38,954 nt of DNA from a virus, in the IMG/VR virus record IMGVR_UViG_3300025115_000028, positions 1 to 38,954 of that record. One strand, 5' to 3'. The position numbers were made by a program, and so were the translations under genes. Positions 1-33,145 of the stretch are shown one piece after another. The stretch's first letter is position 1, and the number at the start of each line of letters is the position of its first letter. Under the pieces are notes generated by a model. That model did not search any database. It was not told where the DNA came from and worked only from the letters and a program-made list of their open reading frames with translations.

Positions 1-920
1 GCCTTAATATCATCAGTCCAATATTGTTTTCTTTTAGATATCACATAATTATAAAAGTCTTTATCTGTTTTCATTTTATGATGAAAAACTTCAGACCCTA
101 TTTTAAAATTAGCACGAGATGTTTCTGCTCTTTTAATTCTATCATAGTTTGATAATCCATCAATATATTCTGATACAGCAACACTCAACTTATCGCACAT
201 TTGATGATATTCTTCATCTGTTAATTCTCTCCAAAATTTTTTAGAATTATAAGATATAGTTTCACACCATGCATTATATGCGTCAATATCATTTTCTTTT
301 AAATATAATAATTTGTTTTTAGCCGCTATGGTTCCGACATTAGGAGGGAATCCTATATCCTGATGAAGTTTCTTATGATCATCCCAAGACATAAACACTA
401 AATTATCAGGAGAATTATTAAATCTATTAAAATCTTTATGATGACGAACACCATACTGTCCATTAGAAATATTTTCATCATATGTATGATATTCAACTTC
501 ACAATCTTTTAGCATATCAGAAACAACTCTATGTGTATATTTCCACTGTTTATCATTATTATCAAAAAATTGTTCATATTCGTTTGTATATGAAGATATT
601 TTTTGTGTCCTTCTATATAAAGGTATTAAACTATCATCAACAGTTATTTCATCAGCACGAACAAATCCTCTATCATACATAGGAAATTTGTGATCATATG
701 TACATATGATATGTTCACCATTATCTAATGTTAATTTCATAACTTTAGCAGACTTTTGAGTAACACCTGCCCAACTAATTAACCCAGGAACAACTTCTCC
801 TGTTTCAGGATGACATGAATATGTCCATAATTTTTTACCCATATCAATTTCATCTTTAATTTCAGATATAGATAATTCTCTACCATCTAATAATGAAACT
901 TTAGTATCCATAGCCAAACA
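1..920 (-). other. Intein with HNH homing endonuclease inside the portal gene (partial)
   Basis: The intein begins at the Cys codon 918-920 with CLAMDTKVSLLDG, a standard splicing block A. Block B is seen as GEHIICTYDHKF (about 684-715), with the TxxH signature. A homing endonuclease of the HNH type follows at about 360-450: GVRHHKDFNRFNNSPDNL, then WDDHKKLH, with the expected His-His, Asn-Asn and terminal His residues. The C-terminal splicing blocks (His-Asn then Cys/Ser/Thr) lie beyond the left edge. The insertion point is directly after the conserved TLxGG of the portal. Inteins normally sit at highly conserved host-protein sites, which fits. It should be active if the C-terminal blocks are intact, but this cannot be seen here. 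Confidence 0.9.
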
Positions 921-2033
921 TCCACCCGCCAATGTGTCTACGGAGGTTCCCTCTCCATTTTCATCCTTAGCGAACCAGAAGTCCTCTGTCATAGCCTGGA
1001 AGTTCCTAGAAGAGTCCATAGCCCCTGTAGATGGATCATAATAAACATTCTTGCGATAACGCTGAATAAGACCACGAATATGTTGTTCTGCTTTACCCTT
1101 AGGCATCTTACCCACATTAACATTCCAAATACGGCGTTCTGGTGCACGAACAATACGATACACAACAACCGCATCCTCAAGATATTTTAATTGATTATAT
1201 ATTCTAATGTTTGATTCTAAAAATCCACGAACATCTAATTTATTTCTACCTGTCTCACCGTAGTTAATATATACAACTTGATTTTTATCAAAACGGACTT
1301 CATCATTTACTGTATTTTCGTGTCCACTATAGTCATCACTTCGTTCTGTATTATCACCATATCCTGCATTGTCTACATTTCCTGATGCTCCTCCATCATT
1401 AACACCATATGTAAAACTAGGAGTTTGAACATATCCTATTATTTCGGTATCATCATAAACGGGGGTAACTGTTTGTGGAGGAAGAACCTTAAAATCAATA
1501 ATATTTTCACCTTCATCATCAAGAATCAATTCAAGATATAATTCTCCATCGACGAGCCATCTACGAAACAAATCCCATCCCGTGTCATTCAATGAAAAAA
1601 CATTATGTATTAGATAATTCCAATGGTCACGAAGTTGTTCCTCTATATGTTCAGGAACTTCATCTTTTAGATATAATTCTAAATAATCACCTGTCTGTGA
1701 ATTTTCAACCATTGCTTCATCGCATATCATATCAAGTCCATCATTGATATCAGGATAATATGACATCTCACGGTATTTGTATATTCTTTGTGCCTTCGCT
1801 CTAAAATATTGATCAAATTGAATGCTTATTGATGACATACCATATCCGGCATTGTCGGGTTCACCTATACCATAATTCCAATATGTAGCAAATCCAAAAT
1901 CAAGTTCCTCTTGTGAATAACCTTGACTGTTACTCTTTTTAACTACTTCGTCCTTTATATTAGAATCTTGTAATCTTCCAAATCTAAAAAATTTAGCAAA
2001 GGGATTTGTGCTACCAAGTATAGGTATATTCAT
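1..2033 (-). CDS. 20: T4-like portal vertex protein (gp20) interrupted by an intein, 3' end beyond window
   Basis: The gene is open from ATG at 2031-2033 to the left edge (677 codons) and has no stop in the window. Residues 1-371 are the N-terminal part of a T4 gp20-type portal, the ring at the capsid vertex through which DNA is packaged. The best match to T4 gp20, from memory, is the stretch with LEDAVVVYRIVRAPERR, then YYDPSTG, MTEDFWF and SVDTLAGG. After TLAGG, where T4 continues with its own portal sequence, the reading frame enters an intein beginning with Cys372 (see the separate entry). The ATG overlaps the stop of the upstream gene (TAATG). Base composition is more AT-rich than the siphovirus DNA to the right. 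A second, unrelated portal lies at 18306-19712, so this gene belongs to a different phage. The C-terminal extein is not seen. Confidence 0.93.
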   Translation of the reverse strand, partial: MNIPILGSTNPFAKFFRFGRLQDSNIKDEVVKKSNSQGYSQEELDFGFATYWNYGIGEPDNAGYGMSSISIQFDQYFRAKAQRIYKYREMSYYPDINDGLDMICDEAMVENSQTGDYLELYLKDEVPEHIEEQLRDHWNYLIHNVFSLNDTGWDLFRRWLVDGELYLELILDDEGENIIDFKVLPPQTVTPVYDDTEIIGYVQTPSFTYGVNDGGASGNVDNAGYGDNTERSDDYSGHENTVNDEVRFDKNQVVYINYGETGRNKLDVRGFLESNIRIYNQLKYLEDAVVVYRIVRAPERRIWNVNVGKMPKGKAEQHIRGLIQRYRKNVYYDPSTGAMDSSRNFQAMTEDFWFAKDENGEGTSVDTLAGGCLAMDTKVSLLDGRELSISEIKDEIDMGKKLWTYSCHPETGEVVPGLISWAGVTQKSAKVMKLTLDNGEHIICTYDHKFPMYDRGFVRADEITVDDSLIPLYRRTQKISSYTNEYEQFFDNNDKQWKYTHRVVSDMLKDCEVEYHTYDENISNGQYGVRHHKDFNRFNNSPDNLVFMSWDDHKKLHQDIGFPPNVGTIAAKNKLLYLKENDIDAYNAWCETISYNSKKFWRELTDEEYHQMCDKLSVAVSEYIDGLSNYDRIKRAETSRANFKIGSEVFHHKMKTDKDFYNYVISKRKQYWTDDIK

Positions 2034-2473
2034 TATTTATCTCCATTTTCAATTGAATCAAAAACCGACTCCATAAACTCAACAATTTTTCTAATCTTCT
2101 TTTTCTTTGTTGGTGTTCTTTTTACAGTGTCACCAACTTTAGAATAATGTCTCCATCCGCCAAAATCTCCACCCGTACTAATGCTTGCCACATCCATAGC
2201 ACCCGTGGTTATAGCCGCATCCTCTTCAACATCAGTAATTTTAGGCTTATCATTATTTATAGATTTTTTTCTATCATTCATTGATGCTTCTTTTTCTGCA
2301 CGCAATTTAATGTTAGAAATATTATTCTCTATTTGTTGTGACTTTTCTTCTAGATCCGCAATATCATTTTGAAACTTAAGAACAATCTCTCGTTTTTTAG
2401 ATATCTGATCTTGAAGTTGTTGCTTTTTAGACGCAAGATTCGCAATCATATTATTAGTTTTTTCACTATCCAT
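2033..2473 (-). CDS. Hypothetical coiled-coil protein upstream of T4-like portal
   Basis: A 146-residue acidic/basic protein. Residues 5-65 form a clear coiled coil with heptad-like leucine, isoleucine and glutamine spacing. The middle is Gly/Ser/Thr-rich (TTGAMDVASISTGGDFGGW) and a lysine cluster TPTKKKKIRK lies near residue 120. It ends one base into the portal start (TAATG), so the two are probably translationally coupled. The position just before a portal gene suggests a role in head assembly, for example a scaffold or portal-associated factor, but no family was recognised. It is not an obvious homologue of T4 gp67, gp68 or gp22. Confidence 0.75.
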   Translation of the reverse strand: MDSEKTNNMIANLASKKQQLQDQISKKREIVLKFQNDIADLEEKSQQIENNISNIKLRAEKEASMNDRKKSINNDKPKITDVEEDAAITTGAMDVASISTGGDFGGWRHYSKVGDTVKRTPTKKKKIRKIVEFMESVFDSIENGDK

Positions 2474-2489
2474 TATTTATACCGCCATA

Positions 2490-2888
2490 TCAGTTATTAA
2501 CGAGAATTTTAGATACTCTCTTCTCTATGCTATCCAAAAATTTAATTTTTTCTTTAAGAATAACATCTCTAATCTTCTCAACTACTTTCTTAATCTCTTT
2601 ATCATCGTCAGACTTCATTATCTTTTTAATCTCATAATTCAAAACACTTTTTAATTTTGTAGCAGACGGAAAAGACTTGTCAACCTCACGATCAAGATAA
2701 TCTATAAGACGCTTACAAAATTCATCGTCTATATACATTTTCCCATTATTATAATTAGAATCAGTTGTAATAGTATCTTCATCAGATTTAGATTTATTTA
2801 ATTCGACCTTTCGTATACCCATCCTACGCTTGGTATTATCAAGCATATGTTTTATATCGCCATAAAGATCCTCGTATAAATTATCCAT
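2490..2888 (-). CDS. Hypothetical charged helical protein
   Basis: A 132-residue, lysine/aspartate-rich and probably all-helical protein. It opens with MDNLYEDLYGDIKHMLDNT and ends with a helical segment LDSIEKRVSKILVNN. No Cys pattern, membrane segment or catalytic motif is visible. The start is preceded by AACGGAGATATA, a usable ribosome site (GGAG). It lies in the same operon as the portal gene, 16 bp upstream of the coiled-coil gene. Low-complexity Lys/Asp composition and AT-rich codons match the portal rather than the siphovirus genes. Function unknown. Confidence 0.7.
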   Translation of the reverse strand: MDNLYEDLYGDIKHMLDNTKRRMGIRKVELNKSKSDEDTITTDSNYNNGKMYIDDEFCKRLIDYLDREVDKSFPSATKLKSVLNYEIKKIMKSDDDKEIKKVVEKIRDVILKEKIKFLDSIEKRVSKILVNN

Positions 2889-2941
2889 TATATCTCCGTT
2901 TTAACAAACAATGTCCCATTACTACTATTTATATTAATTAC

Positions 2942-3349
2942 TTAATCATCAATTTCAGTTGAGTCCCAAGTTACATCACAAACCTGTTCTACCGTAACAC
3001 ATTGATTCTTTATATAATCTTGTTTCGTGATATTCTTGATATATGCTTCCATCCCCCATGCCTCAACTTCATCAATCATAGCAGACATATTAGCCAATGT
3101 GTCTATATGAGTTTTTTTAGAGTATGGGTCACGGGCAATACAATCTGTAGTACCAATCTTGGCGTAATATGACAAAAACGCCTTTAGAGAGAACAATGCC
3201 TCTCGTCCACCAGCAACATGCATATCTTCGGTTCTATTATTACCGTATTTAACTTTCAATCCTGCACGAATCATATTATTAAAATATAATTCAATTTCAT
3301 CCATTCGTTCCTGTTTGCTTGATTCAAGTTTTTGTTCAGGTGTCAACAT
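2942..3349 (-). CDS. Small protein following the adhesin gene, possibly fibre-associated
   Basis: A 135-residue protein. It has a helical N-terminus (LTPEQKLESSKQERMDEIELYFNN is the pattern, Lys/Glu/Gln rich), a middle with HVAGGREALFSLKAFLSYY and a helical C-terminal half around HIDTLANMSAMIDEVEAWG. Short proteins with an early R-x-x-E-I helix followed by paired helices often accompany tail-fibre genes (DUF4376-like), and this one lies 14 bp after an adhesin gene. That assignment is an inference from position and pattern only. The ribosome site AAGGAGACTTAAAA precedes the ATG. It probably belongs to the T4-like phage on the left side of the junction. Confidence 0.7.
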   Translation of the reverse strand: MLTPEQKLESSKQERMDEIELYFNNMIRAGLKVKYGNNRTEDMHVAGGREALFSLKAFLSYYAKIGTTDCIARDPYSKKTHIDTLANMSAMIDEVEAWGMEAYIKNITKQDYIKNQCVTVEQVCDVTWDSTEIDD

Positions 3350-3363
3350 TTTTAAGTCTCCTT

Positions 3364-4290
3364 TTAAGTTATAATTATTCGACGAAGTGTTTTGAAACTT
3401 ACATTCGCTCCGTATGACGTACCTACACTATTTGTTGCATACGCTCTCACATAATAAGTTGTTCCCGGTGATAATGATGTTAATGAAGATGTGAACGACC
3501 CTGTTCCGGTTCCATCCGTTGTTTTCGAGTTTTCCGTTGTAGGATCGGTTGAAGTATTCCAGCAAGCTCCCCTTGCTGTTACTGAAGCACCGCCATCAGA
3601 AGTGACATTTCCACCAGATGAAGCAGTTGTTCTTGTTATATTTGATATTGCTGTTGTTGTTACTGTAGGAACCGAACTAGAAACAGCCTCTTCAACTTCG
3701 ACACCTAAAATAATCATTGGTGCAGTTGCATTTGACTCTATAGTGTATGCCCCTGCAGGAAGTCTTGGAGAAACGGCACCCCATGTATAATTATTAATAT
3801 TGTGGGTAAACAGTAAAGTTCTTACTGTGCCTTGCGGAATCTCCATATTGGCGTTTGTGCTATCACCACCTATTGCACAGCCAATAATTATCGCATTTGC
3901 TGATATGTTTGATAGCGATATCGTCTTTGGAGTTGCTTGTGTATTGTCCCAACTAACAGTCCCGACACCCGAAGCACCTGTAAATGAGCAAACAAAAACA
4001 GAAGTACTGTTCCACTGCGCTGCGGTAAAAGTTACTGCAACATTGTTCGCTCCTGTTGCCGGATTATCGAGTTCATATACTCTCCAAAAATTGGAATATG
4101 ATGTTGAGACATCAAGCATTGATTTCATTGCCTCTCCGTTATATTTAACGGATGATAAATTGGTAGTAGGTGAGGCGACAATAACAACTAAATAGCCGTC
4201 AGAACCTTTGTTATGATTGTGAGAAAAGGAGTAACTACTTGAACCTGGGACTCTTACATCTGCTGTATGGTTGCCTTTAACTAATGCCAT
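3364..4290 (-). CDS. Adhesin-like structural protein with C-terminal fibronectin III-like domain (hybrid copy)
   Basis: A 308-residue protein. Residues 1-205 form a beta-rich domain starting MALVKGNHTADVRVPG and ending VEVEEA. Residues 210-302 resemble a fibronectin type III or Ig-like domain (TVTTTAISNITRTTASSGG, then SLSPGTTYYVRAYATNSVG). Such modules occur on phage tails and decorate surfaces for carbohydrate binding. The first domain is nearly identical to 35120-35764, but that copy lacks the FN3-like part. Differences between the copies are confined to 3775-3889, and everything left of 3685 is unrelated. This copy is therefore a junction between the siphovirus (N-terminal part) and the left-hand phage (C-terminal part). 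Whether the hybrid exists in nature is uncertain. Confidence 0.8.
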   Translation of the reverse strand: MALVKGNHTADVRVPGSSSYSFSHNHNKGSDGYLVVIVASPTTNLSSVKYNGEAMKSMLDVSTSYSNFWRVYELDNPATGANNVAVTFTAAQWNSTSVFVCSFTGASGVGTVSWDNTQATPKTISLSNISANAIIIGCAIGGDSTNANMEIPQGTVRTLLFTHNINNYTWGAVSPRLPAGAYTIESNATAPMIILGVEVEEAVSSSVPTVTTTAISNITRTTASSGGNVTSDGGASVTARGACWNTSTDPTTENSKTTDGTGTGSFTSSLTSLSPGTTYYVRAYATNSVGTSYGANVSFKTLRRIIIT

Positions 4291-22674: not shown

Positions 22675-22703
22675 AATATACCCTATTTAGGGTGTTTTGT
22701 CAA
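22675..22703 (-). promoter_or_regulatory. Consensus promoter for methyltransferase and terminase genes
   Basis: TTGACA (22698-22703), 17-bp spacer, TATATT (22675-22680), in the gap between the 22704 gene and the methyltransferase. Confidence 0.78.
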
Positions 22704-23048: not shown

Positions 23049-23096
23049 TTAATTGTATAAACCCGTTAGGATTCCTGTCGGTAGTAGTGATTTCAT
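23049..23096 (-). CDS. Possible 15-residue leader peptide
   Basis: ATG at 23094-23096 opens MKSLLPTGILTGLYN and stops at 23049-23051, 18 bases before the next gene start. AAAAGGAG lies 7 bases upstream of the ATG, a strong ribosome site, which is why it is listed. Translation may couple to the 22704-23030 gene. Size gives no functional information. Confidence 0.4.
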   Translation of the reverse strand: MKSLLPTGILTGLYN

Positions 23097-23114
23097 TTGG
23101 TTTCTCCTTTTTGT

Positions 23115-23355
23115 AAGTAAGTAATGGTAAGTAATGTACGAGTAATGTTATATAATGTAATATTTATAAGGGTTATATATATATACATTACTTCATTACT
23201 CCATTACTTGTATTATTCTCATGTACGCGATACATATATACACATTTTTTATTTTCACATATAACCCCTTATATATATCCTTTTTTTCTTGTAATGAGTA
23301 AGGACTTTTTAAGTCATTGATTTTAAACAACATCCTCATTACTCCCATTACTCTC
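23115..23355. other. AT-rich iteron cluster, putative replication origin
   Basis: Eight 7-mers AGTAATG or its complement CATTACT fall within 233 bp: direct at 23120, 23130 and 23141, inverted at 23186, 23194, 23202, 23337 and 23346 (the last two inside the 3' end of the neighbouring ATPase gene). The direct copies are spaced 10-11 bp, one helical turn, and the inverted group 8 bp. An AT run with alternating TA steps (about 23171-23185) lies between them. A longer inverted repeat, TATAAGGG(G)TTATAT, flanks the region (about 23165-23180 and 23262-23278). Next to a primase/helicase-type gene this is the layout of an iteron origin. It fills the 270-bp gap, where no convincing gene is present. Confidence 0.65.
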
Positions 23356-25077
23356 AACCCGTATCACCCAGCATCTCGGTGATGTATTATTGATCCACTT
23401 ATTGACATTTACCTCGTCAACATGGTTATTTTTTACCCATTTGTCAAGTACTGCATCTTTATTGAAACCCTTTTTTGAAAGTATCTCTGATAGTTTTGCG
23501 GTTATTATAAAATACTGATTTGGGTTATCGGGGTTTCTTTTCCCCCATTGTTCCATGTTGCTTTTGGATTCAAATCTATTCGGATTTGAGGCTATTTCAG
23601 AAACAAGATATTCGTATGCCCGTTCTGATTGTTCTACCTGATCGTGATCTTTTATTATACTACTGATAAAAGGCTTGCCAAAATCGGCAAGGTTCCAGTC
23701 AAAGCATTTATTAAAAAACTCCCTTGCCGTTAATATTACACAAACGGAAAGCATTTGCTTATCTGTTGCCTTTGATGAACTAAATGAGGAAACTAATTGC
23801 CTATAATACTGCTTTATTTCCATTTCATGCTCAATAATGTATTTAATCCACCGCTCGGCAATGAATCCGTAATTTTTTTGTATAATTTCGGCATATTCCG
23901 GACCAGTTTTATTTGGGTATAATTCAACATCTGATTTTATGGCAAGAATACGGTTTATTTCGCCCGCCTGTGAGTTTTGGTCGGTCAAAGACACTTCACC
24001 CGTTGAAATCGTTATTAGATTCCATGTCAAATCGTCCCTAATTGTCATTTTTGCTGTTGCTCTGCGCTTCCCTTTACCATTTGCGAGCATATAGATATCC
24101 CTTGTCAACCGTTCCTTATCGGATTGCTGGGATTCGTCAAGGCATAAAGGCAATGAATTTAGGAAATTTGCTGTCACCTCAATACCCGCACCTGTAGTAT
24201 TATGCGATTGTACAAGTGCCAAAGGGTCACCCCATGCCGAAACAACAGCCTGCAAAGTGAGTGTTTTCCCTCCCCCTGTCATACCGTCAATATGGACAAT
24301 AAACGGAAGAGCATTAATTTTATTAAGCAAAGGAGATGCAACAGAAGCCAAGAATAGGAATCTGAAAACATCAAATTTACACTTTTCCTGTATTGCCGAC
24401 TTCCAAAGGTTATAATCACCATTTTGCCTTACCGCATTAAAAACATTTGAGTATGAGACATCACCGTCATACATTATCCCATTTAAAAATGGTGAACATT
24501 GCCCGTTTATCCACCCCATGCGCCCAATAGAGGGTTTTATAGGTAAATGGTTTCCGTTGATAATTATCATATCTTGAATGTATTTGCAGACATCTCCGGC
24601 ATTTTTTGGATTTATAGCAATTAAATAATGCCCTGCCGCCATACCGAAATCCCTTGACGATGTGAGAACGGTATAATCAAAAACCGCTGTTTTGGGCTTT
24701 TCCCCTGTTATTTTCCACCACAACTCAACCTTCCTCGCTCCGTTGACAATATTTTCGTATTTACAAATCGGCAATATAGGATGCCTCATTATCTGGTATC
24801 CATCAAGAAAAACTCCATCATTATTGACAGTATATTCTTCGGAAAAAGAACAGTCATCAAAACCATCAACAATTACAACACCGGAATTTTCTTGTTTTTT
24901 ACAGGTTTTTTCCGCTTCTTTTATTTTCCCTGCATACTGCACTTTTGCCTCTTTGCATAATTTTTGGAAAACAGTAATCAGCTTGGCTTTTTCTATGCTT
25001 TCCGGCATTTTGTATAATTCGATGAAATTATCAAAGACATACATATCTTCGGTTGTTAATGTTTCGGTATTAATCAT
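23323..25077 (-). CDS. DUF927-like replication ATPase/helicase
   Basis: 584 residues. The P-loop is GMTGGGKTLTLQ (about residues 268-279), followed by a Walker B-like LPLCLDESQQ (about 315) and a further motif (QAGEINRILAIKSD, about 370). This arrangement matches the DUF927/plasmid-phage primase-helicase C-terminal family. Residues 1-90 are a helical N-terminus, and residues 90-220 contain the domain preceding the ATPase (GYQIMRHPILPICKYENIV and WWKITGEKPKTAV). The last 150 residues include a likely winged-helix region. It probably unwinds the origin that lies at its 3' end. The primase zinc finger is encoded separately at 25952-26413. Confidence 0.78.
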   Translation of the reverse strand: MINTETLTTEDMYVFDNFIELYKMPESIEKAKLITVFQKLCKEAKVQYAGKIKEAEKTCKKQENSGVVIVDGFDDCSFSEEYTVNNDGVFLDGYQIMRHPILPICKYENIVNGARKVELWWKITGEKPKTAVFDYTVLTSSRDFGMAAGHYLIAINPKNAGDVCKYIQDMIIINGNHLPIKPSIGRMGWINGQCSPFLNGIMYDGDVSYSNVFNAVRQNGDYNLWKSAIQEKCKFDVFRFLFLASVASPLLNKINALPFIVHIDGMTGGGKTLTLQAVVSAWGDPLALVQSHNTTGAGIEVTANFLNSLPLCLDESQQSDKERLTRDIYMLANGKGKRRATAKMTIRDDLTWNLITISTGEVSLTDQNSQAGEINRILAIKSDVELYPNKTGPEYAEIIQKNYGFIAERWIKYIIEHEMEIKQYYRQLVSSFSSSKATDKQMLSVCVILTAREFFNKCFDWNLADFGKPFISSIIKDHDQVEQSERAYEYLVSEIASNPNRFESKSNMEQWGKRNPDNPNQYFIITAKLSEILSKKGFNKDAVLDKWVKNNHVDEVNVNKWINNTSPRCWVIRVESNGSNEDVV

Positions 25078-25270
25078 TTTTCACCTCATCATCTTCATTT
25101 AACACCACAAAACCACACATATTTTCCTTTTCAGAAAAACAATTTAGTCTTCCGTTGTCATGTAAAACCCATATAGAATTTTCACATATTTTAACAATTC
25201 TACCTTTATGCTTCCAAAAAACACCATCATTAATACCTTTAATTTCAATTTTCTTCCCTACCAGATCCAT
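25070..25270 (-). CDS. Small hypothetical protein downstream of the structured RNA
   Basis: 66 residues, MDLVGKKIEIKGINDGVFWK onwards, with a beta pattern (GRIVKICENSIWVLHDNGR) resembling a small SH3/KOW-type barrel and a final acidic tail. A near-perfect ribosome site AGGAGG lies four bases before the ATG. It overlaps the ATPase gene by 8 bp. It is the first gene after the terminator of the RNA element at 25285-25403, so any readthrough of that element would set its expression. Confidence 0.68.
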   Translation of the reverse strand: MDLVGKKIEIKGINDGVFWKHKGRIVKICENSIWVLHDNGRLNCFSEKENMCGFVVLNEDDEVKND

Positions 25271-25284
25271 ACAACCTCCTAAAA

Positions 25285-25403
25285 ATAAAAAACCCTACAA
25301 AGACGGTCTGCATTGGACTATGCCCAGTAACTTGGAACTGGTGACCGCCCTTGTAGGGCAATCCAAGTTTTTAATGTCAATCAGCGGGTGTCCAAGTCCG
25401 CCA
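25285..25403 (-). ncRNA. Compact structured RNA with own promoter and terminator, or attenuator leader
   Basis: About 120 bases from the promoter at 25409-25436 to an intrinsic terminator. Read on the minus strand, the elements are: a hairpin GCGG/CCGC (25384-25387, 25398-25401); a strand AACTTGGA complement pairing (25362-25369); a small hairpin GCCC/GGGC; hairpin CCAGT/ACTGG with 8-base loop (25324-25341); hairpin GCAT/ATGC (25310-25323); and a 14-bp terminator stem (25293-25306 with 25345-25358) followed by TTTTTTATTTTT. The 8-base loop is fully complementary to 25362-25369, and the loop of the GCAT hairpin is complementary over 6 bases to the loop of the GCGG hairpin. Pseudoknots or kissing loops are therefore likely. 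AGGAGG and ATG of the next gene follow. No known riboswitch or ribozyme was matched. Confidence 0.72.
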
Positions 25404-25408
25404 TAGTT

Positions 25409-25436
25409 AATATACATTATGCGTTGTGGTTGTCAA
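25409..25436 (-). promoter_or_regulatory. Promoter for the structured RNA and ATPase operon
   Basis: TTGACA (25431-25436), 16-bp spacer, TATATT (25409-25414). The -35 overlaps the last codons of the upstream gene. Confidence 0.72.
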
Positions 25437-25857
25437 TATTGTTGAGATCTAAAATTAACCCGCAATTTACCACATTAATATAACTTGTGTTTCCGAAAAT
25501 ATCGTATGTGATTAATATTAAATCCCAGTATATCTCATCGAGTGCCCAAAAGATATCAGTATATTTCAGTATTTTCTTGTCGTTTAGCGGGTGCGTATCT
25601 TCAACCTCGTAACAGACAATCGCTTTATTTTCCTTGTCAATTAAATAGGCATCCGGCACAAGTCTTGCCCTTGATTTAAATACATGAACAATATCCTCAA
25701 AAAACTCATCATCAGTTTTAACTTCACTTAATACATTTTTACAAAAATTTAAAGTTTTGATGTTGTTGTTTTTACTTATCAGTAACTCGACAATGTCTTT
25801 TGATCTACAATTTCGTTTTGATAATAAATCATCTTTAATATTATATGCGTAGTCCAT
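25417..25857 (-). CDS. Possible PD-(D/E)xK nuclease-like protein
   Basis: 146 residues. The central stretch RLVPDAYLIDKENKAIVCYE, followed by VEDTHPLNDKKILKY, has the spacing of a PD-(D/E)xK-type core: PD, a short hairpin, E-x-E in the second strand, then a helix with K-x-x-x-Y. The last part is two hydrophobic strands (WDLILITYDIFGN). This could be a small nuclease or a catalytically altered relative, because the usual Lys after the second acid is replaced by Glu (YEVED). It stands between two terminators/promoters. The start follows GAAGGGAAG. Confidence 0.6.
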   Translation of the reverse strand: MDYAYNIKDDLLSKRNCRSKDIVELLISKNNNIKTLNFCKNVLSEVKTDDEFFEDIVHVFKSRARLVPDAYLIDKENKAIVCYEVEDTHPLNDKKILKYTDIFWALDEIYWDLILITYDIFGNTSYINVVNCGLILDLNNIDNHNA

Positions 25858-25878
25858 AATAATATCTTCCCTTCTTTT

Positions 25879-25909
25879 AAAAAACGCCCCGATCCGTCAC
25901 GCTCGGGGC
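25879..25909 (-). terminator. Intrinsic terminator after the CHC2 gene
   Basis: GCCCCGA/TCGGGGC 7-bp stem (25903-25909 and 25886-25892) followed on the coding strand by GTTTTTT. It ends the early operon that runs from 33.1 kb. A second 8-bp hairpin (CATATCGG/CCGATATG) lies between it and the CHC2 stop. Confidence 0.82.
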
Positions 25910-25951
25910 AACGACTGAAATAACATATCGGTCAATATAAAACCCGATATG

Positions 25952-28537: not shown

Positions 28538-28869
28538 TGCTTACCCTCCGCAAAATATGCCGCAACTTCAATTTTAACATCCTCCAATGATCTGCAAACT
28601 ACAACATGATTCCCGCAGTCTTGTAAGGCAAGCATGGTGCGATACTGGATGTCCGAGATTCTCCCGGATATGGTTTTGAGTTCGATATACATAGCACCCC
28701 ATGCCCCGCAAGGAGCAGGGATGCAGATATCCGGTATACCTGCTTTGGTGCCTGCTGAATGGTGCTTCCCTTCGTTTCGCACATGGTAAGCGAGGGCGAG
28801 TTCCGGCAGTTTGTTGTATTGACTTCTGAACCATTTGAATACTGCGCTTTGCAGTTGCGACTCGGTCAT
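28534..28869 (-). CDS. VRR-NUC-type nuclease
   Basis: 111 residues. GIPDICIPAP and MYIELKTISGRISDIQ are the PD and E-x-K of the VRR-NUC nuclease family (residues about 43-76), followed by a helix with the usual Q (IQYRTMLALQDCG). VVVCRSLEDVK is the final strand-helix. Such standalone small VRR-NUC proteins occur with phage SF2 helicases and may resolve branched DNA. The start MTESQLQSA lies in a 38-bp sequence duplicated 326 bp upstream. The ATG overlaps the Cys-repeat gene stop (ATGA). Confidence 0.88.
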   Translation of the reverse strand: MTESQLQSAVFKWFRSQYNKLPELALAYHVRNEGKHHSAGTKAGIPDICIPAPCGAWGAMYIELKTISGRISDIQYRTMLALQDCGNHVVVCRSLEDVKIEVAAYFAEGKQ

Positions 28870-28880
28870 TGTTTAACCTC
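28843..28880 (-). repeat. 38-bp direct repeat, copy at the VRR-NUC start
   Basis: Identical to 29169-29206. It spans the last codons EVKQ-stop of the preceding gene, GAGG ribosome site, ATG and the first nine codons (MTESQLQSA) of the VRR-NUC gene. Confidence 0.92.
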
Positions 28881-29195
28881 GCAGTCTCTACAGTCTGTAC
28901 AGTATATGCAGTCTCTGCAGTTTGTGCAATCTCTGCAGGCTTTACAGTCTTTACAGTCTGTACAATCCGTGCAGTCTATACAATCTGTGCAATCTCTGCA
29001 ATCCGTACAATCTATGCAATCTGTGCAATCTATACAGCCCACAAGTGAAACACTTCTTTCAGACGCCTGCTCTTCAGTGTAGTTGGACATACTCCATCTA
29101 TTACTATTGTCATCTACATAGTACCCATTTTCTTTTTTCATTTTCTTCTCTCTTCCTTGCACACAATGTGCGCTTTGCAGTTGCGACTCGGTCAT
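28866..29195 (-). CDS. Cys-tripeptide-repeat protein
   Basis: 109 residues from ATG 29195, or 91 from the internal ATG at 29141 (MKKENGYYVDDNSNR), which has GGAAGAGAGAAGAAA before it. The C-terminal half is 17 repeats of Cys-x-Asp-like tripeptides, such as CIDCTDCIDCTDCRD, with 18 cysteines at every third residue. Such repeats may form a narrow solenoid or bind several metal ions. The first nine residues and the last four (EVKQ) derive from the 38-bp duplication of the flanking genes, so the gene sits exactly between the repeats. The N-terminal middle (WSMSNYTEEQASERSVS) shows no domain. Function unknown. Confidence 0.75.
   Translation of the reverse strand: MTESQLQSAHCVQGREKKMKKENGYYVDDNSNRWSMSNYTEEQASERSVSLVGCIDCTDCIDCTDCRDCTDCIDCTDCTDCKDCKACRDCTNCRDCIYCTDCRDCEVKQ
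28881..29036 (-). repeat. 9-bp minisatellite encoding Cys-x-Asp tripeptides
   Basis: About 17 units of a degenerate 9-bp repeat (coding strand TG(C/T)-NNN-GAC-like) give the Cys-tripeptide array. The unit is three codons, so gains and losses keep frame. Third-position and Cys-codon variation between units shows that the array is old or under protein-level selection. Confidence 0.88.
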
Positions 29196-32210: not shown

Positions 32211-32419
32211 AAAACAGTCCTTTCTATAAGTTTTTCAAGTTCCTTCACGGTCATATCACCGTGAATTTTTTCCCATACAATCAAAACATCGGCTTCCTCA
32301 CCGCCGAGTTTCTCGACCGCTCTTCTGATTGCGGGGATCCATACATCCGCCCTCGGTTCCCAAGGTTTTTCCATTTCCGACAAATCCCCTGTCGGCATGT
32401 CTGCCATTGTAAATCTCAT
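32204..32419 (-). CDS. Small hypothetical protein after hairpin cassette 1
   Basis: 71 residues from ATG 32417-32419 (MRFTMADMPTGDLSEMEKPW). A longer frame starts at 32518, but would translate the hairpin cassette, so the cassette-linked start is chosen. The middle VWIPAIRRAVEKLGGEEADV and the end GDMTVKELEKLIERTVL suggest a small helical domain. Function unknown. Confidence 0.65.
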   Translation of the reverse strand: MRFTMADMPTGDLSEMEKPWEPRADVWIPAIRRAVEKLGGEEADVLIVWEKIHGDMTVKELEKLIERTVLC

Positions 32420-32455
32420 CTTTCCCTTCCTTCTGCCCCCGAAGGGGCGGTTTTG
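32420..32455 (-). repeat. Hairpin plus ribosome-site cassette, copy 1
   Basis: Coding strand: AAAACC, then GCCCC-TTCG-GGGGC hairpin, then AGAAGGAAGGGAAAG directly before ATG. The 15-base A/G ribosome region and hairpin match copies 2 and 3. Confidence 0.9.
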
Positions 32456-32459
32456 TTTA

Positions 32460-32594
32460 TTAGTTTTTGATGCGGATGCGGATGTTATGCTGCCCGAAAT
32501 AATATTCGAATTTTGCATCCCTGCGGGTCGGATCCATTGTGTAGGCGGCTTTTTTAATCCTCCGGTTTACCCAGCTGACATTTTTAATATTCAT
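32460..32594 (-). CDS. Tiny basic protein after hairpin cassette 2
   Basis: 44 residues (ATG 32592-32594): MNIKNVSWVNRRIKKAAYTM, then FEYYFGQHNIRIRIKN. It is basic and aromatic, plausibly nucleic-acid binding. The cassette directly upstream is the main reason for calling this small ORF. Confidence 0.65.
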   Translation of the reverse strand: MNIKNVSWVNRRIKKAAYTMDPTRRDAKFEYYFGQHNIRIRIKN

Positions 32595-32628
32595 CTTTCC
32601 CTTCCTTCTGCCCCCGAAGGGGCGGTTG
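32595..32628 (-). repeat. Hairpin plus ribosome-site cassette, copy 2
   Basis: Same as copy 1: GCCCC-TTCG-GGGGC and AGAAGGAAGGGAAAG before the ATG at 32592-32594. Confidence 0.9.
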
Positions 32629-32630
32629 TT

Positions 32631-32804
32631 TTATGCTACAACTTCCCAACCCATAGAAACGGCATACTTTGCCGCTTCCTTGTAACCGTCAAAGTCACCT
32701 GCACAGTTTGTATCGTTCGCATGATCTTTGACGATCCAGTTGATCGTACCTTCACAATCTTCATCTCCCCAAAACTCTTTGAAGCAGGCAATGTAAACTT
32801 TCAT
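32631..32804 (-). CDS. Small acidic protein after hairpin cassette 3
   Basis: 57 residues (ATG 32802-32804): MKVYIACFKEFWGDEDCEGT, then KDHANDTNCAGDFDGYKEAA. Three Cys, several acidic residues, no known family. It follows cassette 3 and precedes cassette 2, so each gene in this row carries its own signal. Confidence 0.65.
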   Translation of the reverse strand: MKVYIACFKEFWGDEDCEGTINWIVKDHANDTNCAGDFDGYKEAAKYAVSMGWEVVA

Positions 32805-32840
32805 CTTTCCCTTCCTTCTGCCCCCCGAAGGGGCTGTTTT
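32805..32840 (-). repeat. Hairpin plus ribosome-site cassette, copy 3
   Basis: Same element with one extra G in the 3' stem arm and a changed base before the stem (CAGCCCC). AGAAGGAAGGGAAAG is unchanged. Confidence 0.88.
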
Positions 32841-32841
32841 G

Positions 32842-33090
32842 TTAGTATATCCGCTCTACTACTACACAGTTTGCGACTACAACCTCGCCCGTGTCCTCAC
32901 CGTACTCCAAAAAATCACCGTCAACAATATATTTGTGCGGGTATGGATACATACCGTCCCTGTCAGTGCCAACCTCAAGAACAGATGTCCCCGATAGCGT
33001 TTCGCCTGTTAAGTCCCCATCATTATAAACACGACTGATCGGGAGTTTAGCCCCTATTTGCAGATCGTTGTCGTATCTTATATATCTCAT
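32842..33090 (-). CDS. Hypothetical protein, first gene of the early operon
   Basis: 82 residues from ATG 33088-33090 (MRYIRYDNDLQIGAKLPISR), which keeps the same 15-base distance to the cassette as the other genes. A GTG at 33096 is an alternative. It is beta-rich (VVVANCVVVERIY at the end). It is the first gene downstream of the promoter at 33146-33174. No family recognised. Confidence 0.68.
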   Translation of the reverse strand: MRYIRYDNDLQIGAKLPISRVYNDGDLTGETLSGTSVLEVGTDRDGMYPYPHKYIVDGDFLEYGEDTGEVVVANCVVVERIY

Positions 33091-33124
33091 TTTCACATTC
33101 CTTCTGCCCCCGTGGGGGCGGTTG
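33091..33124 (-). repeat. Hairpin plus ribosome-site cassette, copy 4 (diverged)
   Basis: GCCCC-CACG-GGGGC hairpin, then AGAAGGAATGTGAAA and ATG. The loop and part of the purine tract have changed but the stem and the AGAAGG are kept, which supports selection on the structure. Confidence 0.85.
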
Positions 33125-33145
33125 TTAGTTGCTCATCATGTTAAT

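Follow-up and report, generated by a model that had tools for sequence, protein, structure and literature searches.

A candidate attenuator leader ahead of the primase-helicase operon of a tailed phage

On the minus strand of phage record IMGVR_UViG_3300025115_000028 (the window: the whole stretch of 38,954 nt that was analysed), a promoter is followed by a structured RNA segment, an intrinsic terminator and the ribosome binding site of a 66-aa protein gene that lies ahead of a DUF927 primase-helicase gene. We read this arrangement, with a probability of about 0.5, as a 5' leader that carries a conditional intrinsic terminator (attenuator) of the 66-aa/DUF927 primase-helicase operon. The reading is based on the promoter and terminator sequences, the gene order, complementarities that exceed chance and the absence of any other promoter; from these we infer that the leader is transcribed, partially terminated and capable of switching. 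The relevant elements are as follows (window coordinates).

25417-25857, minus strand: 146-aa orphan gene, preceded by a terminator and overlapped at its end by the leader promoter
25409-25436, minus strand: promoter TTGACA-16-TATATT, overlapping the 3' end of the upstream 146-aa gene
25383-25402, minus strand: hairpin A, at the predicted 5' end of the transcript, with a 10-nt loop, ACUUGGACAC
25362-25369, minus strand: linker strand AACUUGGA, complementary to the P2 loop throughout
25343-25363, minus strand: alternative 9-bp hairpin GAUUGCCCU-ACA-AGGGCGGUC, which takes up the whole 5' strand of the terminator
25292-25359, minus strand: three-way-junction terminator hairpin (P1, P2 and P3)
25281-25292, minus strand: U-tract of the terminator, TTTTTTATTTTT, directly after P1 and including TTTTTT
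25275-25280, minus strand: Shine-Dalgarno sequence AGGAGG of the 66-aa gene
25070-25270, minus strand: gene for a 66-aa protein, with its ATG at 25270, gene-like codon usage and no database relative
23323-25077, minus strand: DUF927 primase-helicase gene (phrog_8841, PF06048)

Promoter, leader fold and terminator

The promoter sequence reported in the initial annotation, which named no strand, is present on the minus strand, at 25436-25409 (TTGACA at 25436-25431, a 16-nt spacer and TATATT at 25414-25409). It is a strong promoter of the sigA type (11/12 match) and, judging from its sequence, transcription should start at about 25402. In the window, the minus strand has eight promoters with a match of at least 11/12 and the plus strand has none; the expectation is 0.7 per strand. 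The other strong promoters inspected, beside the portal, methylase and head genes, have short leaders of a few tens of bases without comparable structure; the leader described here is exceptional among this phage's promoters. No promoter was found between the terminator and the start codon of the 66-aa gene; therefore, all transcripts of this gene, whether from this promoter or from one upstream, have to read through the terminator. As the end of P1 is only about 20 nt from the ATG, the downstream genes depend on read-through. Promoter, leader and intrinsic terminator lie ahead of the start codon with no promoter intervening, as in an attenuator. Elsewhere in the window, a promoter preceding a ParB/methyltransferase gene (22675-22703) carries the palindrome ACCCTAAATAGGGT between its -35 and -10 elements, an operator-like site.

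From 5' to 3', the leader RNA comprises hairpin A, a 23-nt linker, a 68-nt hairpin (25359-25292), the U-tract, AGGAGG and the ATG. Hairpin A has a 5-bp stem (25402-25398/25387-25383). The 17-bp P1 stem (25359-25343/25308-25292) closes a three-way junction, at the tip of which stand the small hairpins P2, with a loop of 8 nt (UCCAAGUU, 25336-25329), and P3, with a loop of 6 nt (AGUCCA, 25319-25314). The minimum free energy of the 121-nt minus-strand stretch is -45.9 kcal/mol (z-score -4.5). For the 152-nt stretch the z-score is -4.2 on the minus strand versus -2.1 on the plus strand, and a plus-strand RNA was rejected on the grounds of its weaker fold and its lack of a promoter. Among the terminator-like hairpins of the first set of loci scanned, none equals the P1 hairpin in stability. 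Going by the sequence, termination would release an RNA of about 117 nt. These elements (hairpin A, P1, P2, P3 and TTTTTT) correspond to the RNA of about 120 bases, with at least four hairpins and an intrinsic terminator, that had been proposed earlier; the gene with AGGAGG said to begin right after the T-run is likewise in place (AGGAGG at 25280-25275, ATG at 25270).

A 40-codon frame (25417-25295) overlaps the upstream stop codon at its start (TAATG) and runs into P1, where it ends. We rejected it as a gene, its codon usage being that of non-coding frames (only 1.2% of true coding stretches score that low), and we also rejected an attenuator governed by a leader peptide, because the frame has no Shine-Dalgarno sequence and its codons resemble those of non-coding frames. 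Were the frame translated on messages coming from upstream, ribosomes would block the terminator.

Complementary loops and competing folds

The 8-base loop that had been described as fully complementary to an upstream strand is the P2 loop, which matches the linker strand 25369-25362 at 8/8 positions. Chance was gauged with shuffles of pairs and unpaired bases that keep the folded structure and the letter composition (20,000 for the loops and 4,000 for the self-hairpin). A P2 loop complementary at 8/8 positions to the upstream part arose in 0.11% of the 20,000 controls (P 0.0011), a value to be weakened by a factor of a few since the longest loop was picked post hoc. The two further loops said to pair over 6 bases are those of hairpin A and P3: UUGGAC in the former is complementary to GUCCAA at the latter, the sixth nucleotide being available only if the closing pair of P3 opens. 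A 6-nt match to the P3 loop and its flanks was reached in 4.7% of the 20,000 controls (P 0.047). Both complementarities occurred together in 0.005% of the same controls (5e-5); however, UCCAA is common to the P2 and P3 loops and CUUGGA to their two upstream sites, so that the matches are not independent and the joint value overstates their independence.

The initial annotation had also pointed to a GCCC/GGGC hairpin competing with the terminator stem. This hairpin was confirmed and proves to be 9 bp long (25363-25355/25351-25343): the linker and the 5' strand of the terminator fold on themselves at -13.3 kcal/mol, and only 0.8% of the 4,000 controls contained a self-fold as good (P 0.008).

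A peculiarity of the loop-linker match is its geometry. The linker strand stops 2 nt short of the base of P1, and its partner, the P2 loop, lies beyond the tip. An A-form helix of 17 bp measures about 48 angstroms, against a reach of less than about 20 for 2 nt. For this reason, the 8-bp pairing is unlikely to form within one molecule in which P1 and P2 are intact; on geometrical grounds, it probably either excludes the complete terminator, as part of an alternative fold, or acts in trans. By the same reasoning hairpin A, on its longer tether, could kiss P3 in cis. Thus, of the loops earlier called interlocking, the complementarities stand, whereas interlocking of the 8-nt loop in cis is doubtful.

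Prefix folding yields hairpin A, then the 9-bp self-hairpin and then P2. With 109 nt exposed, the best fold without P1 (-34.7 kcal/mol) and the fold with a partial P1 (-34.6) are level; the complete terminator is ahead by 11 kcal/mol. Since a polymerase that has reached the U-tract would have about this length of RNA exposed, a balance between folds with and without P1 is plausible at that point. Alternative folds at least as stable occurred in 18% of the structure-preserving controls, and a designed two-state switch is therefore not proven.

As an attenuator, the leader might work as follows. RNA polymerase would start at about 25402 and make hairpin A, the linker and the 9-bp hairpin into which the future 5' strand of the terminator folds on itself. 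Just before the U-tract, the 3' strand would displace this hairpin, the 17-bp stem of the three-way junction would close and the transcript would end at about 117 nt; should displacement fail, the polymerase would go on to transcribe the replication genes. Being able to pair with the P2 and P3 loops, the linker and hairpin A would favour the read-through fold or, alternatively, serve as contacts for a trans-acting copy, an antisense partner or a protein that tips the balance. Read-through could also be constant rather than regulated, and the terminated product may double as a small RNA. We consider it very unlikely that released leaders accumulate with genome number and pair in trans, through linker and loops, with nascent leaders, so shifting the terminator; if true, this would amount to a self-complementary, copy-sensing attenuator on one strand, without an antisense gene. 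The combination of a three-way-junction terminator and loops that match the 5' domain of the same RNA permits a simple mutational test of cis versus trans pairing.

Genomic setting and searches for relatives

The record is that of a tailed phage whose identified genes are all on the minus strand. They encode a terminase large subunit (of the Terminase_3 type), portal, head and tape-measure proteins, as well as a helicase, a RecT-like protein, the DUF927 primase-helicase and a fragment of a Zn-finger primase. Bacterial relatives of the helicase, at about 50% identity, sit nearly all in Clostridia metagenome-assembled genomes (MAGs), and the host is therefore probably a member of the Clostridia. 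The end of the contig (35159-38954) duplicates the internal segment 3685-7480 (3796 nt, 99.5% identical), and positions 1-3684 have no similarity to the remainder of the window; probably, a circular 31,474-bp genome has been connected to an alternative branch, or the contig is an assembly join. At 32407-33128 there are four copies of a cassette of about 51 nt, in minus-strand reading, each of which opens a small gene; in these a GC-rich hairpin, GCCCCTTCGGGGGC, runs straight into AGAAGGAAGGGAAAG-ATG (in one copy GAAGGAATGTGAAA-ATG). About 20 tandem 9-nt repeats resembling CAGTCTCTA lie at 28873-29052, within a 109-aa gene (28866-29195).

In related phages (Roseburia phage Jekyll, THSA-485A, FP_Epona and the loci L011 and L014), the Zn-finger part of the primase lies next to the DUF927 helicase or is fused to it; in the present phage the two are separated by the 146-aa gene, the RNA and the 66-aa gene. 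The structure model of the 66-aa protein is all-beta, of low confidence (pLDDT 56) and too uncertain for a fold search. The 146-aa gene scores as coding by codon usage; its product has a PD...EVE motif and a weak match to the L_protein_N family (E 0.002, below the cut-off), and is possibly a PD-(D/E)XK nuclease. Just before the ribosome site of this gene, at 25862-25951, lies a second hairpin with an intrinsic terminator (GCCCCGA...TCGGGGC-GTTTTTT), in a layout like that of the leader RNA. An AT-rich noncoding gap with repeated words resembling ATTACTTAC and TACTCATTAC follows the DUF927 gene (23049-23322) and is a candidate replication origin. Gaps of about 220-370 nt follow the DUF927 gene in loci L003, L004, L006, L011 and L014 as well.

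Relatives of the 146-aa protein, the 66-aa protein or the RNA were found in none of the datasets searched, and neighbour-gene searches with the primase and the two small proteins gave no close relative. The initial annotation had been unable to assign the RNA to a known class, and an Infernal/Rfam-type search agrees: no Rfam covariance model, riboswitch, T-box and leader families included, matched at its gathering score, and at E 10 there were only chance matches (ylbH leader, 16.6 bits with a cut-off of 50; Hovlinc, 11.2 with a cut-off of 42.3). Neither an exact 18-mer search nor blastn of the RNA against phages and plasmids returned a homologue. A gapped loop pattern hit 98 stretches and a stem pattern 115, none of them with the fold. 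A covariance model built from the single sequence gave only chance-like matches when run on the loci, on related phage records and on 391 genomes belonging to the same class as a Clostridia MAG. One of them (L216) was rejected as the beginning of an ABC-transporter-like gene, the codons of which fit the linker by coincidence; two others (L214 and L215) cover the 5' part only, lack the three-way junction, read as coding by eye and were also discarded. Since no homologue was found, leader function is a property that we infer. Should the leader be a regulated terminator, it would be an RNA switch controlling the primase-helicase operon of a phage, of which no description was found in the literature searched, and a candidate for a new leader class.

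Alternative readings and known systems

Of the functions suggested in the initial annotation, the attenuator fits best in view of the absence of another promoter, the competing hairpin and the exceptional leader. A small RNA is compatible with the data inasmuch as termination would yield an RNA of about 117 nt. A free-standing small RNA and a plain boundary terminator with chance loops are serious rivals, both less probable than the attenuator. The former, a real possibility and the stronger of the two, supposes a stand-alone gene with its own promoter and terminator, whose RNA would use its exposed loops to act in trans on targets of the phage or the host, the replication genes being served by leaky termination or by transcription from upstream. 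The complete promoter-RNA-terminator unit, a size typical of small RNAs and the non-coding character of the segment agree with this, as does the fact that it sits, together with the orphan 146-aa gene, between two primase parts that related phages have side by side or fused. However, complementarity between the exposed parts and the translation-start regions of phage genes does not exceed that of shuffles, a free-standing relative was found nowhere in the searches, and the terminator directly abuts the Shine-Dalgarno sequence of the next gene, as in attenuators. This last arrangement recurs at the plain terminator upstream of the 146-aa gene, which has the same position relative to its ribosome site and favours the other rival: an ordinary strong terminator and a promoter at an operon boundary, with loop matches due to chance and nothing regulated beyond partial termination. 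We hold this to be possible too, if slightly less so, as the stability of the global alternative fold is within the control range and conservation of the leader could not be shown; the element would then be an ordinary one. Against it stand the 8/8 loop-linker match (P 0.001) and the self-hairpin (P 0.008), the placement of the promoter upstream of the terminator rather than after it, so that the unit yields a terminated leader, and the 68-nt three-way junction, which is unusual for a plain terminator.

Two further readings are far less probable. ACTTGGA repeats acting at the DNA level could bind a replication or repressor protein, RNA pairing being a by-product: within 70 bp, beside replication genes, the motif has two minus-strand copies and one plus-strand copy, with TTGGAC as a partial fourth. 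Yet the copies sit in hairpin loops and in the single-stranded linker of an otherwise stable fold, and the gap after the helicase gene is the better origin candidate, making this reading very unlikely. Least probable of all is a packaging or self-assembling RNA like phi29 pRNA, in which the loops of one copy would lock onto another. The three-way junction with two hairpins, the length of about 117 nt and the loops that can pair elsewhere in the same RNA recall such molecules, and on geometrical grounds the 8-bp match would be sterically easier between two molecules than within one. Still, the junction loops UCCAAGUU and AGUCCA share no complementary dinucleotide, Rfam pRNA (RF00044) gives no match, the junction stem is the terminator and the phage encodes a conventional Terminase_3-type large subunit and a portal rather than a packaging ATPase system of the phi29 type. 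The packaging option of the initial annotation is thus not supported.

Set against known systems, the attenuator leader proposed here shares traits with several. A three-way junction, similar size and complementary loops also characterize packaging RNA of the phi29 type (PMC5340915), from which it differs in the mismatch between its junction loops, the conventional terminase and its ending as an intrinsic terminator. The HK022 put RNAs, which have two stem-loops in about 70 nt, bring polymerase past downstream terminators by acting on it directly (PMC9378689); like them it would be a phage leader RNA that affects termination in cis, whereas its structured part is itself the terminator. With riboswitch and protein-binding leaders it has in common a hairpin that competes for the 5' strand of the terminator and a site just before the Shine-Dalgarno sequence, although it matches no Rfam aptamer or leader and its terminator is itself a three-way junction. 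The pIP501 repR leader is attenuated by a 136-nt antisense RNA (RNAIII), which is transcribed from a convergent promoter (PMC4981023). Unlike pIP501, the phage leader has no convergent antisense promoter (no plus-strand match of at least 9/12 near the leader's 3' end in a scan of 25000-25400) and no relevant BLAST match to plasmids; the order of elements is the same in both, a promoter, a leader, premature termination and then a replication gene.
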